From assembly GCA_028867785.1 (NCBI GenBank), contig JAGWFS010000003.1:124001-188000 (forward strand): 64,000 nt of DNA. The letters are read 5' to 3'. Origin of the DNA: Nitrososphaerota archaeon. Lineage in GTDB: Archaea > Thermoproteota > Nitrososphaeria > Nitrososphaerales > Nitrosopumilaceae. Below, piece after piece: positions 3,907 through 43,322 of this stretch. The notes beneath the pieces were generated by a model that saw only the letters and a program-made list of their open reading frames with translations, searched no databases and was not told the DNA's origin. A program made the position numbers and the translations under genes. Every line of letters starts with the position of its first letter. Position 1 is the first letter of the stretch.

Positions 3907-4446
3907 TTAGAGTTTTGTACATTCCACTATTACCAATTCCTCAAAGAAGAGTTTCTTTTTTGCATATATTTTTGCAGCAAATCCAAGACTCTCAGTTCTT
4001 CTTATCAACTCGTTATAGTTTGCAAGAGAAGATGTAAGAAATACCAGCTTGCCATGTTTTTGGATTACGCTGCTTGCAGACTTTATTATGCCAGTGGGGA
4101 TGCCAAGCCCCTCTTCCAGGCCATCGACGGCACTATCTGCAACCTTATCTGACGGAAGATATGGCAGATTACATACTACAAGGTCAAAGCTGCATCGCAG
4201 CGCGTCTGCAGAGTTGCAGCAGATACAATTTTTTACAGTCTTGTGTGCTTTTTTCAATGCGTCAAGGCTAATGTCGGTTGCAACCACAAGCTCAAAGTTG
4301 TCGGATAAGACCTGTGCAAGGAGGCCAGAACCTGTTCCAATATCAAGCGCGGCACGGCCTTTTTCGTTTTGTATGCAACCAGCAAGAAAGAATGTGTCTT
4401 CAGCAGGCTCATAGTATTCATCGAATGATTTTTTTTGCAATATCAA
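3907..4446 (-). CDS. HemK/Mtq2-like protein methyltransferase
   Basis: A 179-residue Rossmann methyltransferase with SAM motif LDIGTGSG (34-41) and the NLPYLP motif (93-98), a variant of the NPPY signature of N5-glutamine methyltransferases. In archaea this short form is expected to methylate the GGQ glutamine of release factor aRF1, as Mtq2/HemK2 does with Trm112. It is the last gene of the eL21-Rpo4-DUF655-KsgA cluster and overlaps ksgA by 29 bp, which suggests translational coupling. Confidence 0.8.
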   Translation of the reverse strand: MILQKKSFDEYYEPAEDTFFLAGCIQNEKGRAALDIGTGSGLLAQVLSDNFELVVATDISLDALKKAHKTVKNCICCNSADALRCSFDLVVCNLPYLPSDKVADSAVDGLEEGLGIPTGIIKSASSVIQKHGKLVFLTSSLANYNELIRRTESLGFAAKIYAKKKLFFEELVIVECTKL

Positions 4447-5122
4447 TTATCTCTCCATCAGACAGATCTTCAAGCCTTTTATCAGAATCAATGACAACAT
4501 CAAACTGCCTTGCAATGCTTCTTACAGTCTTTCTCTTAAACGAAAATAGCTTGTTGACTGCCGCGATGAGCTCTTTTTGCATTCTTTTCTTTTGTTTTAT
4601 GCCTATTACTACAGAATCCACCCTTGGCACTGGTTGGAAGTTTGCTTTTTTGACATTCAAGAGTTTTTCCATGTCAAAACAATAACCTGCAAGAACGGAG
4701 ACTGCCCTTCTGCCGCTTCCTTTTTTTAAGAAGAGTTTCTGGGCAAACTCCTTTTGTACCATTATTACAGCGTGTGAGAACCTTCTCTGGACCAGCCATT
4801 CCATGGCATTTCGGCTCTCAGAATACGGCAGGTTTGAGACAAGTGCTGTAAAATCAACGTCCATCTCGAAGGCATCCCCGTGCTCAAGCTCCAGATTTTG
4901 TATCCCAGCAAACCTTGCTTTTGCCTCCCTGTACAGTATAGGGTCCTTTTCAACAGAAATTACCCTTTTTGCCTTGCTGCACAGACAACTGGTCAGAATT
5001 CCCTTTCCCGTTCCCACCTCAAGGACTGTATCTTCTCTTGTAATGCGTGCAAGATCAACTATGGATTCTGCGATTTGGTTTGACGTTAGAAAGTGTTGTC
5101 CCAGTGCGCGGCGCTTGCTCAT
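4418..5122 (-). CDS. ksgA: 16S rRNA dimethyladenosine transferase KsgA/Dim1
   Basis: A 234-residue enzyme that dimethylates two adjacent adenines in helix 45 of 16S rRNA during small-subunit maturation. Visible are the RRALGQHFL start, SAM motif LEVGTGKG (34-41), the acidic loop VEKD (57-60) and the catalytic NLPYS (97-101). The C-terminal helical domain has VPRVDSVV and FSFKRKTVR. It overlaps DUF655 upstream by 4 bp (ATGA) and the methyltransferase downstream by 29 bp. The cluster is a classic archaeal arrangement. Confidence 0.93.
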   Translation of the reverse strand: MSKRRALGQHFLTSNQIAESIVDLARITREDTVLEVGTGKGILTSCLCSKAKRVISVEKDPILYREAKARFAGIQNLELEHGDAFEMDVDFTALVSNLPYSESRNAMEWLVQRRFSHAVIMVQKEFAQKLFLKKGSGRRAVSVLAGYCFDMEKLLNVKKANFQPVPRVDSVVIGIKQKKRMQKELIAAVNKLFSFKRKTVRSIARQFDVVIDSDKRLEDLSDGEIIDIAKKIIR

Positions 5123-38577: not shown

Positions 38578-39039
38578 ATGTCACAGCCAAACTATGCTGG
38601 AAACATTATTGTTTCTCTGGCAAACCTTCCAGAATTTCTGCGCAAACCCATATTGCAAAAAAGACTGTCCGAGTTCTTTTCAATGTCAAGAGAAGACAAA
38701 CAGGAGATCATAAACAATGCCTTGCAGGCCGGGCCCACAATACAGTTTGACAGGTTTTCCACCCTGTTTAAGACATGGCTTGAGGTGCTGTGCAATTTAT
38801 CTGAAGAACAGAGAAGAATGATGTTTGATGCGTACATTACTGAGATTACAAACAATCCAGAAAAAATCATCCTGTTTAATCTTGACGGAATTTTAGAGGT
38901 TTACTTTATGCTGACAAACGACCAGAGAAGTATAATCTCAAGCACTATTAAAAAAATCACAGATTCGCTGGATAGTGAGTCAAAAAAGAGAATTAGCCTT
39001 GTAATTCCAGAAAGAGCAAAGAAAGAGATAGGAATCTAG
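38578..39039 (+). CDS. Hypothetical helical protein
   Basis: A 153-residue, mostly alpha-helical protein. Pattern: repeated amphipathic helices with SMSREDKQEIINNAL, NLSEEQRRMMFDAYI and LTNDQRSIISSTI, spaced about 40-45 residues apart, which looks like three degenerate copies of one helical motif (Leu/Met-Ser/Thr-x-(Asp/Glu)-(Lys/Gln)). ATG 38578 is chosen over TTG 38563 from the spacing to a TATA-like segment. It shares its CTAG stop with the next gene. Function unknown. Confidence 0.65.
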   Translation: MSQPNYAGNIIVSLANLPEFLRKPILQKRLSEFFSMSREDKQEIINNALQAGPTIQFDRFSTLFKTWLEVLCNLSEEQRRMMFDAYITEITNNPEKIILFNLDGILEVYFMLTNDQRSIISSTIKKITDSLDSESKKRISLVIPERAKKEIGI

Positions 39040-39311
39040 AGCGGTTTGTCAGGTTTTCGCTGATTCTCATCTGCGAAATTTATGACATCGCCTTCAGGCG
39101 TCATTACCCCTACGAATACTTTTTCATACCTTTTCACTACTTTTCGGTGATCAGGCATGGACATGTCTAGCCTCATTTCATTCATCACCATTACCCTGTA
39201 CTGCTTCCATTCTTCCCAACATGGGTTGCAGCAAGGATAAACGGCTGCTATAGGATCTAGTTCCATACTATCTGGAATCTCCTTTTTACATTTAGTACAG
39301 CTTCTTGCCAT
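39036..39311 (-). CDS. YggX-like protein (Fe-S/iron-trafficking-type fold) with zinc knuckle
   Basis: A 91-residue protein. N-terminal cysteines C5-x2-C8 and a CCNPC cluster (27-31) suggest a metal site. The following EEWKQYRVMVMNEMRLDMSMPDHRK segment resembles the conserved helix region of YggX (Fe(2+)-trafficking protein, WQKKQ-x-LINE-x-x-L-x-M-x-x-P-E-x-R). YggX-type proteins protect Fe-S clusters from oxidants in bacteria. The assignment rests on this one stretch and is tentative. Confidence 0.5.
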   Translation of the reverse strand: MARSCTKCKKEIPDSMELDPIAAVYPCCNPCWEEWKQYRVMVMNEMRLDMSMPDHRKVVKRYEKVFVGVMTPEGDVINFADENQRKPDKPL

Positions 39312-40940: not shown

Positions 40941-41540
40941 ATGATCGTATCCTGCAGCCGCGATGGAATTTCCATGGCTTCCAAGATAATCAAGAGTGGC
41001 GGCATTGCGGTTTTTCCTACAGATACCGTATATGGAATAGGATGCGATCCATTCAACAACAAAGCGGTAGAAACAATTTACAAGATTAAAGGACGCGAGG
41101 GATCAAAACATCTCCCGGTCCTTGGATATTCCATTTTTGAGATATCAGAGATTGCAGTCTTTGACAAGTTATCACAGAAATTTGCATCCAAGTTCTGGCC
41201 CGGTCCATTAACATTAATTCTTGATGTGAAAGAAGAAAAGATTGCAAGGTCCCTTGGTCTTGATAAAAAGATAGCAGTACGTGTGCCTAACCACCCGTGC
41301 GTATTAGAACTCCTCAGAGAATGCAAACTGCTTGTTGGAACCAGCGCAAATCCATCCGGCCAACCGTCTGCTGCAGATTCTTCAGAGGTGATAGAGAAAC
41401 TGAACGGATATGACATACTGTTAGATGGAGGCAGCATACCAAATCCTGTGGAATCAACAATCGTCAAAGTAGAAGGTGACATGTTTGACATAGTACGGCA
41501 AGGAAAAATTAGCAAAAAGGAGCTGCTTTCTCTAGTTTGA
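40941..41540 (+). CDS. sua5: L-threonylcarbamoyladenylate synthase (Sua5/YrdC family)
   Basis: A 199-residue YrdC-domain protein that makes threonylcarbamoyl-AMP, the precursor for t6A in tRNA. GGIAVFPTDTVYGIGCDPFN and KGREGSKHLPVL are the nucleotide-binding signatures, and GTSANPSGQPSA closes the domain. It lacks the extra Sua5 C-terminal domain. It overlaps the THUMP gene by 4 bp, and the MoaD-Cgi121 fusion lies convergent just after, so the neighbourhood is a tRNA-modification locus. Confidence 0.9.
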   Translation: MIVSCSRDGISMASKIIKSGGIAVFPTDTVYGIGCDPFNNKAVETIYKIKGREGSKHLPVLGYSIFEISEIAVFDKLSQKFASKFWPGPLTLILDVKEEKIARSLGLDKKIAVRVPNHPCVLELLRECKLLVGTSANPSGQPSAADSSEVIEKLNGYDILLDGGSIPNPVESTIVKVEGDMFDIVRQGKISKKELLSLV

Positions 41541-42058
41541 ACCTAATTGTAACATGCAGTCGCCATCTTGAAGAAGAGGCGTCCGATGAGATTTCAAAGA
41601 CTCTCGTGACACTAGGCGATGCAGAATCTAAAACAGAACACAGCAGATTCTCAGGCATAGTAGTGGTTGATACGTCTCTAGATCCCTTCCAAGTAGTGGA
41701 CAAGATAAGAACAAAGATTCTTGACGAGCCGTGGAGCATCAGATACTGCCACAGATTCATACCGATTCAGGAGTCGATGAGGACCACGCTTGAAAACATA
41801 GTGGCTGCCGTGCAAAAACATGCAGGCCGTATGCAGTCAGGTGATTCTTACAGAATTACAGTTGAAAAACGCGGTTCAGAACTGTCAACTAAGGAATTGA
41901 TCGATTCAATTGCAGGAATTGTGAAAAACAAGGTGTCCTTGGAGGAATATGACTGGAATATCACAGTTGAAATTCTTGGAGACATCACTGGAATCTCCAT
42001 ACTGAAAGACCCAGACATAGTAAGCACCTTGAAAACAAAACGAGACTCAATGGAGTAG
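41537..42058 (+). CDS. THUMP-domain RNA-binding protein (Tan1-like)
   Basis: A 173-residue protein formed by a THUMP domain. MNLIVTCSRHLEEEASDEI start and the later DSYRITVEKRGSELSTKELIDSIAG with VEILGD fit the Tan1/THUMPD1 group, which binds tRNA and helps N4-acetylcytidine formation at position 12. The start is TTG at 41537 overlapping the sua5 stop. It overlaps the convergent gene by 12 bp. Confidence 0.82.
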   Translation: MNLIVTCSRHLEEEASDEISKTLVTLGDAESKTEHSRFSGIVVVDTSLDPFQVVDKIRTKILDEPWSIRYCHRFIPIQESMRTTLENIVAAVQKHAGRMQSGDSYRITVEKRGSELSTKELIDSIAGIVKNKVSLEEYDWNITVEILGDITGISILKDPDIVSTLKTKRDSME

Positions 42059-42823
42059 AACTGCAGATCTCTCGACTAGGAGATCCTCAAGTGGTTCTGA
42101 TGACATTATACAGCCAAGTTCTTTTTTTGTTATTTTGAACTGTTTTTTTAAGAAACTGGCATTGTCGGGAAACGGCATCATTGGCTTTATCACGGGACCT
42201 AGTTCTGCAACAAGCTTGTCAACTAGCGGTTCTTTTCCAATAGCAATCAGAATCGAATCGCCATCCTTTTGCAATCCCACTTTGGAGATTGCGTCACTTA
42301 TCTGCTTATTTGCCGCAAATCTCATAAGCATGTCAGTTTCAACTTTGTTTGAAAGCAGGATTCCAGCCTTGTTTGCTGCCAGGGAAACTTCAATGACTCT
42401 CTTTGCATGGCTTACACTTAGGACGTACTTTGATCTAATGCCCTGAATGATTATAGTCGGGAATCTGGCTCGTATGGATTCAAGAAATTTCACTGGATCG
42501 GCACTTGTCTTTCCAACCCTGATTAGTTCTACATGGTAATTTGAGATCCTAAAGTTGGCTCTTTTGCTGCCTCCATGAACCACGGGAATTATGCTGACAA
42601 TGTCCCCGCCCTTAAGGAGAGTTTCGTTTCCTTGCAGAACAGACGAATCGGCACCGTTTATCGCCACAAGAATATTTCTGGTGTCAAATGCAGGCATGTT
42701 TTTTTGAACCAGGTCCTGGAGAAGGACGAGGAGATCAGATACCGACATGGAGTTTTTCTCAATTGATATGGTATCAGACAGAAAGGATCTCTTGGCACCG
42801 CCAAGAAGTTTGACTGTTATCAT
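42047..42823 (-). CDS. MoaD/ThiS-like domain fused to Cgi121-like KEOPS subunit
   Basis: A 258-residue two-domain protein. Residues 1-86 form a beta-grasp MoaD/ThiS/SAMP-like domain ending PVVHGG (80-85), which is a Gly-Gly as in sulfur carriers but internal here. Residues 90-258 match Cgi121: SVSHAKRVIEVSLAANKAG (136-154) and RFAANKQISDAISKVG (168-183). Cgi121 activates Bud32/Kae1 in t6A synthesis. The gene ends inside the convergent THUMP gene and faces Sua5. Both domain calls are motif-based; the fusion itself is a plain reading of one frame. Confidence 0.72.
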   Translation of the reverse strand: MITVKLLGGAKRSFLSDTISIEKNSMSVSDLLVLLQDLVQKNMPAFDTRNILVAINGADSSVLQGNETLLKGGDIVSIIPVVHGGSKRANFRISNYHVELIRVGKTSADPVKFLESIRARFPTIIIQGIRSKYVLSVSHAKRVIEVSLAANKAGILLSNKVETDMLMRFAANKQISDAISKVGLQKDGDSILIAIGKEPLVDKLVAELGPVIKPMMPFPDNASFLKKQFKITKKELGCIMSSEPLEDLLVERSAVLLH

Positions 42824-42887: not shown

Positions 42888-43160
42888 TTAGCTGATCAGC
42901 TGTTCTTCCATCTCTTCAGGCTCAGCCATGGCCTCTTCCTGCGGTGCCAGTGATTCTTTTTCTTTTTGTTCTTCAAGTTCTCTTCGCAGGTGAGCCGTGA
43001 TATATCCCGCAATCTCGTTTTTTAGTCCCTTTGATCTAACTACAGCAACTTCATCAAGTATTTTCTTATTTTGTTTAAAGTCGATGCCGAATTTTCCTTT
43101 ATAAGTAGTCATTAGTTCCGTGGAAATTCGTCTGACTCTATTCACGTTACCGATTGGCAT
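42888..43160 (-). CDS. rps17e: Small-subunit ribosomal protein eS17
   Basis: A 90-residue protein. GNVNRVRRISTELMTTYKGKF and EVAVVRSKGLKNEIAGYITAHL are the eS17 signatures. The Glu/Met-rich tail after residue 65 is an addition to the usual core. I start at ATG 43160 (MPIGNVNRV), since family members begin with GNV; GTG 43145 is possible, because a TATA-like GTATATAAT lies 27 bp before it. The longer frame to 43250 is not needed. Confidence 0.88.
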   Translation of the reverse strand: MPIGNVNRVRRISTELMTTYKGKFGIDFKQNKKILDEVAVVRSKGLKNEIAGYITAHLRRELEEQKEKESLAPQEEAMAEPEEMEEQLIS

Positions 43161-43322
43161 AAGGGGTATTATATACCAGACTTTTCTGGGCATAAAATAA
43201 CTTCCCAACGCCTCAACTACCATCCAAGCATACCTGCAATCTTGTTTCACATCCCAAAATCTGGTCTTTCATTTTAGCCTGTCTTAGCAAATAATGTTCT
43301 CTTCATTATTTTGTGCTTCGAG

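Follow-up and report, generated by a model that had tools for sequence, protein, structure and literature searches.

A Urm1-like domain joined to the KEOPS subunit Cgi121 through an invariant His-Gly-Gly in Nitrosopumilaceae: a possible cleaved precursor

The fusion of a beta-grasp (Ubl) domain to the KEOPS subunit Cgi121 is already known. It was reported in 2010 in all of the thaumarchaeal genomes then available, with apparent co-transcription with S17 and proposed links to SAMPylation or to the control of RNA or protein turnover (Makarova and Koonin 2010, PMC2948915). The fusion described in the relevant passages of that paper is exactly the same as the one analyzed here; those passages draw on few genomes and do not treat split forms, their His-Gly-Gly (HGG) ends or processing at the joint. 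Our study adds a comparison of split with fused genes, data bearing on the Gly-Gly inside the chain, and the finding that no free Ubl is detected in fused genomes. In contrast to the 2010 description, the unfused pairs found here show that genomes across the wider order do not all share the fusion. We found no experimental follow-up of the fusion in the open-access literature, outside which most subscription papers fall.

An analog of the joint itself is MoaX of Mycobacterium tuberculosis, a fused MoaD-MoaE that is cut after Gly82 of an internal Gly81-Gly82, as shown experimentally, with Gly81 being needed (PMC4326299). The two proteins share an N-terminal beta-grasp carrier, an internal Gly-Gly and a fused partner, and by analogy MoaX offers a direct precedent for the proposed cleavage after Gly85 of the archaeal protein. 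However, the partner in MoaX is MoaE, which serves molybdopterin synthesis, rather than Cgi121, and the case for cleavage in archaea is a comparative one. In archaea, maturation of a Ubl precursor by an enzyme of the Rpn11 type is described for Caldiarchaeum, where Rpn11 processes a ubiquitin precursor (PMC6043591), although that is a true ubiquitin system with a different precursor. Eukaryotic and Sulfolobus Urm1 proteins (PDB 2k9x, 2ax5 and 4wwm) resemble the N-terminal half in fold, and the aligned 2k9x and 4wwm chains also end in His-Gly-Gly; the fusion domain differs from them in falling below the NCBIfam Urm1_like cut-off and in carrying the Cgi121 extension after HGG.

The locus lies in a window of 64,000 nucleotides (contig JAGWFS010000003.1, positions 124,001 to 188,000), and all positions below are those of the window (Table 1). 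The genome is Nitrosotalea-like, with named Nitrosotalea species among its nearest relatives.

Table 1. Features of the fusion gene and its neighbors in the window
Feature	Position	Strand	Evidence
Sua5/YrdC, L-threonylcarbamoyladenylate synthase	40941..41540	+	Pfam Sua5_yciO_yrdC, 179.8 bits; TIGR00057 over cut-off
Stand-alone THUMP-domain protein, convergent with the fusion gene, 12-nt overlap	41537..42058	+	Pfam THUMP, 30.8 bits
Fusion gene, ATG start, 258 aa, H83-G84-G85 internal	42047..42823	-	ORF and translation check
Variable residues after Gly-Gly, then KEOPS Cgi121 domain, residues 86-258	42050..42568	-	Pfam CGI-121, NCBIfam Cgi121; Foldseek to solved Cgi121; CCA-binding Gln/Ile positions kept
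His-Gly-Gly, residues 83-85, proposed cleavage after Gly85	42569..42577	-	55/55 fused proteins; end of free-standing Ubls; sole AF2 segment with pLDDT <50
Urm1-like beta-grasp (Ubl) domain, residues 1-85	42569..42823	-	Pfam ThiS and Urm1; PDB profile matches to Urm1 proteins; Foldseek to Urm1 and SAMP1
Ribosomal protein S17e, directly upstream of the fusion gene; true start probably inside the frame	42888..43250	-	Pfam Ribosomal_S17e

The first-pass annotation of this DNA had read a single frame as a MoaD/ThiS-like beta-grasp domain ending in HGG followed by a Cgi121-like domain, and had suggested a profile check of both halves. Both exceed curated cut-offs and both are also recovered by structure search. 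Residues 17-85 match Pfam ThiS at 34.4 bits (cut-off 22.5) and residues 129-254 match Pfam CGI-121 at 35.2 bits (cut-off 25), with NCBIfam Cgi121 reaching 110.9 bits (cut-off 40). A profile built from 46 fused proteins matches solved Cgi121 structures in the PDB, and its N-terminal part matches the Urm1 proteins of Trypanosoma, yeast and Sulfolobus. The AlphaFold (AF2) model has a mean pLDDT of 88.7 and a pTM of 0.65, and residues 83-85, modeled as disordered, are its only low-confidence segment. Foldseek searches with this model returned Cgi121 first (E 7e-9), the best 20 matches all being Cgi121/TPRKB structures, followed by Urm1 (2k9x, E 4e-4) and SAMP1.

The subfamily of the N-terminal domain had to be revised. 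Its membership in the beta-grasp superfamily stands, through Pfam ThiS, but within that superfamily the domain is of a Urm1-like kind, with no specific tie to ThiS or MoaD. Pfam Urm1 is slightly below its cut-off with the full fusion protein and above it with the isolated domain (25.2 versus 21.8). By NCBIfam, the isolated domain stays under the cut-offs for ThiS and MoaD proper (15.4 versus 80 for PRK08364; 21.7 versus 66.15 for TIGR01682). Because the nearest NCBIfam profile, Urm1_like, is also below its cut-off (27.6 versus 70), "Urm1-like" is the limit of the classification, and the domain is best filed under that name, neither as Urm1 nor as a ThiS- or MoaD-specific protein.

The C-terminal half shares its fold and most of its CCA-contact positions with the solved archaeal Cgi121 proteins (PDB 2k8y, 7kjt and 8up5), which differ in having no N-terminal Ubl. 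In Methanocaldococcus jannaschii Cgi121, the residues Gln28, Gln71, Ile72, Ile76 and Gly80 contact the tRNA CCA end (PMC7718258), and they align with Q127, Q174, I175, I179 and G183 of the fusion. Two further contact residues, Lys56 and Met60, are replaced by N159 and T163; Phe21 falls outside the alignment on which this comparison is based.

The gene order proposed at first reading, with the fusion gene convergent to and overlapping a THUMP gene that is itself coupled to Sua5, was borne out: Pfam confirms both neighbors, and the THUMP and Sua5 genes overlap by 4 nt (TTGA). These genes form a conserved block, S17e/Ubl-Cgi121/THUMP/Sua5, with S17e upstream on the same strand in 126 loci, a convergent THUMP gene downstream in 122, and Sua5 beyond it in 100.

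Our main sample comprised 201 genomes of the order in which Cgi121 was found by Pfam, a procedure that is not biased towards HGG. A survey of relatives, as the first-pass annotation had suggested, found the two halves fused in nearly all of the sampled Nitrosopumilaceae, the family of the window: apart from G071, the frames that hold the Cgi121 matches of this family are all about 245-320 aa long. The same fusion is present in Nitrosopumilus, Nitrosarchaeum and Nitrosotenuis records; the set of named public genomes is biased, since one of its two search patterns contains HGG. In G071 (family f1, otherwise fused; locus L088), a TGA stands one codon after HGG and a TTG follows immediately, and the GGAGGT of its Gly-Gly codons could serve as a ribosome-binding site. 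In another record (L136, Nitrosotalea sp. TS), the matching stretch at 4001-4778 has one base more than whole codons, suggesting a frameshift or a sequencing error in the record.

Elsewhere in the order, the Ubl and Cgi121 are usually encoded by separate adjacent genes. At the loci examined, the two genes are separate in families f2, f3, f4, f6, f7, f13 and f14, and genus g41 of family f8 is mixed, with fused (G161, G164, G086, G056, G083, G134) and split (G089, G074, G104) genomes. Some f8 genomes have no urm1 adjoining cgi121, but encode an unlinked free Ubl of about 90 aa. Adjacent urm1 and cgi121 genes are also seen in other Thermoproteota: at 6 of 30 loci a Urm1-like Ubl gene lies within 1.5 kb of cgi121, and in four of these it overlaps cgi121. 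A functional link between the Ubl and Cgi121 is likely on these genomic grounds, since the two genes are kept as a pair even where they are not fused. On a tree of 79 rows, we counted five changes between the fused and split states against a mean of 24 after shuffling; at least three are forced by supported branches, and long branches leave the exact number unsure. HGG stays at the joint through each of these changes.

The residues immediately following HGG vary among the fused proteins, whereas HGG itself is present in all 55 distinct sequences, which share a mean pairwise identity of 46% and a minimum of 23%. The Gly-Gly that is internal in the fusion lies at or close to the chain end in unfused relatives. 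Among the split Ubls beside cgi121 sampled in the order (30 in all), HGG is the exact end of 17, and the other 13 have tails of 1-9 residues. Some of the unfused Ubls with short tails after Gly-Gly (L003, L011, L014, L019, L027, L031, L085, L089, L090; tails CI, CL, GCL, CLRYDGEVE, MVGV, GTAF and SPKPA) would need trimming too. All four Gly codons (GGA, GGT, GGC and GGG) occur at both Gly positions of the fused genes; the third base is free, and selection therefore acts on the protein. The same codon usage rules out a Shine-Dalgarno origin of the Gly-Gly codons. An internal start of Cgi121 after HGG is not general, as about half of the fused genes lack an in-frame start in the next 66 nt.

A custom Ubl profile never found a free Ubl in the fused genomes, its only confident matches being Ubl-Cgi121 and, in most genomes, Ubl-E1. 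Of 61 genomes surveyed with Pfam ThiS, nearly all are in line with this, and in complete Nitrosopumilaceae genomes a sensitive Ubl profile recovers Ubl-Cgi121 and one Ubl fused to E1. This second Ubl is an N-terminal fusion to a ThiF-family E1 (G000:C294:65678-66628; L206-L211), and is nearer to SAMP1/MoaD. It adjoins threonine synthase (thrC); a reading of this neighbor as a possible cysteine synthase was dropped when it scored as threonine synthase. Ubl-E1 and thrC are both undetected in several small near-complete genomes. E1, NcsA and two JAMM genes are usually present, with NcsA (TIGR00269) in 38 of the 41 genomes tested and JAMM in 60 of 61. HSHP and a conserved Asp after it are retained in all ten JAMM proteins that were checked, and the JAMM genes are not linked to the fusion locus.

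We propose that the fusion is a Urm1-like carrier or modifier made as a precursor with Cgi121 and cut after Gly85, rather than a device for permanent coupling, and assign this reading a probability of roughly 0.6 on the basis of sequence comparison. The gene would encode a Urm1-like protein followed in frame by Cgi121, and a protease would cut after Gly85, most simply one of the conserved JAMM enzymes; these are candidates by virtue of their presence, and both their lack of linkage to the locus and the failure to find them in three f14 genomes, whose Ubl is unfused, speak against them. One product would be a mature Ubl ending in Gly-Gly, which E1 could activate for use either as the sulfur carrier in tRNA thiolation (NcsA/TtuA family) or in protein modification. 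The other, Cgi121, would join KEOPS and bind tRNA 3′ ends for t6A synthesis. Through the fusion, a single operon would supply S17e and, in equal amounts, the two translation-related factors. The precursor reading is suggested by two intact domains on either side of a joint that is flexible in the model, and by relatives in which separate genes encode both proteins and the smaller product stops at HGG or shortly after it. Cleavage is favored because repeated joining and splitting of the halves has left HGG at the joint every time. The first-pass remark that an internal Gly-Gly would need cleavage to act as a carrier holds good.

The carrier step of this model is weakened by four near-complete genomes (G076, G141, G147 and G174) in which no confident ThiF-family E1 was found, although HGG and NcsA are kept. 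E1 activation cannot account for the conservation of HGG in these genomes, because they have no confident E1. Two of the E1 losses would be recent, because close E1-bearing relatives of G076 and G147 exist (86-88% identical). We considered these genomes as a natural experiment and abandoned the idea: thrC is also undetected in all four, so that loss of the locus and an assembly gap are inseparable. Direct use of sulfide has been proposed for some archaeal thiolation enzymes. If thiolation does need a free Gly-Gly carrier, the fusions would be its only source. More broadly, we tentatively suggest, at somewhat short of an even chance, that the abundant Nitrosopumilaceae have no detectable Ubl other than fusions whose Gly-Gly is internal (one to Cgi121 and, in most genomes, a second to E1), and that their whole Ubl system would then depend on proteolytic maturation, with the Urm1-Cgi121 precursor setting the ratio of the tRNA thiolation and t6A machineries.

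Alternatively, the fusion may remain uncut. The Ubl would then be a lasting additional domain of KEOPS through which a partner is recruited (E1, NcsA or a substrate tRNA pathway), and HGG would act as a hinge or as a motif for recognition. The conservation of the pair across the order, its proximity in some other Thermoproteota families, which points to a functional link, and the near-fixation of the fusion in Nitrosopumilaceae would all fit. Nevertheless, hinge residues need not be invariant, unfused forms have the same HGG as their C-terminus, repeated splitting shows that the covalent linkage is dispensable, and fused genomes would be left without a Ubl of this family with a free C-terminus. 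We therefore regard an uncut fusion as unlikely, and the first-pass suggestion of a physical coupling between t6A synthesis and a carrier system is not favored, the halves being separate in most other lineages. More improbable still is that the HGG joint permits regulated attachment and removal of the Ubl on KEOPS, with the fused form as a pre-modified, switched state. KEOPS regulation by SAMPylation was proposed in the passages of the 2010 paper on this fusion (PMC2948915), and most genomes have E1 and JAMM genes, but an isopeptide conjugate is not equivalent to a linear N-terminal fusion and E1 is undetected in some genomes. Since split genes often overlap or share a frame, fusing takes only one small change, and a nearly neutral fusion in which Gly-Gly persists through recent ancestry might be imagined; the retention of HGG down to 23% identity already disfavors this reading, which we consider very improbable. 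That a frameshift or assembly error has joined two genes is refuted: dozens of assemblies made independently, single-contig genomes among them, all have this frame.

The repeated joining and splitting at the invariant HGG narrows the question of why a Ubl sits on KEOPS to a single one, namely whether Gly85 becomes a C-terminus in ammonia-oxidizing archaea. If so, the cleaved precursor would be a natural archaeal case of Ubl precursor processing tied to tRNA modification.

There are two further minor observations. JAMM was not found in three f14 genomes (G038, G046 and G014), and the unfused Ubls of G038 and G046 end exactly at HGG, which is suggestive but phylogenetically clustered. Finally, in 73 loci the fusion gene is followed on the same strand, about 2-4 kb further downstream, by the gene for a 91-aa protein with CxxC pairs (39036-39311, minus strand, in the window), whose only match is to an oxidative damage protection profile (PRK05408) below the cut-off.
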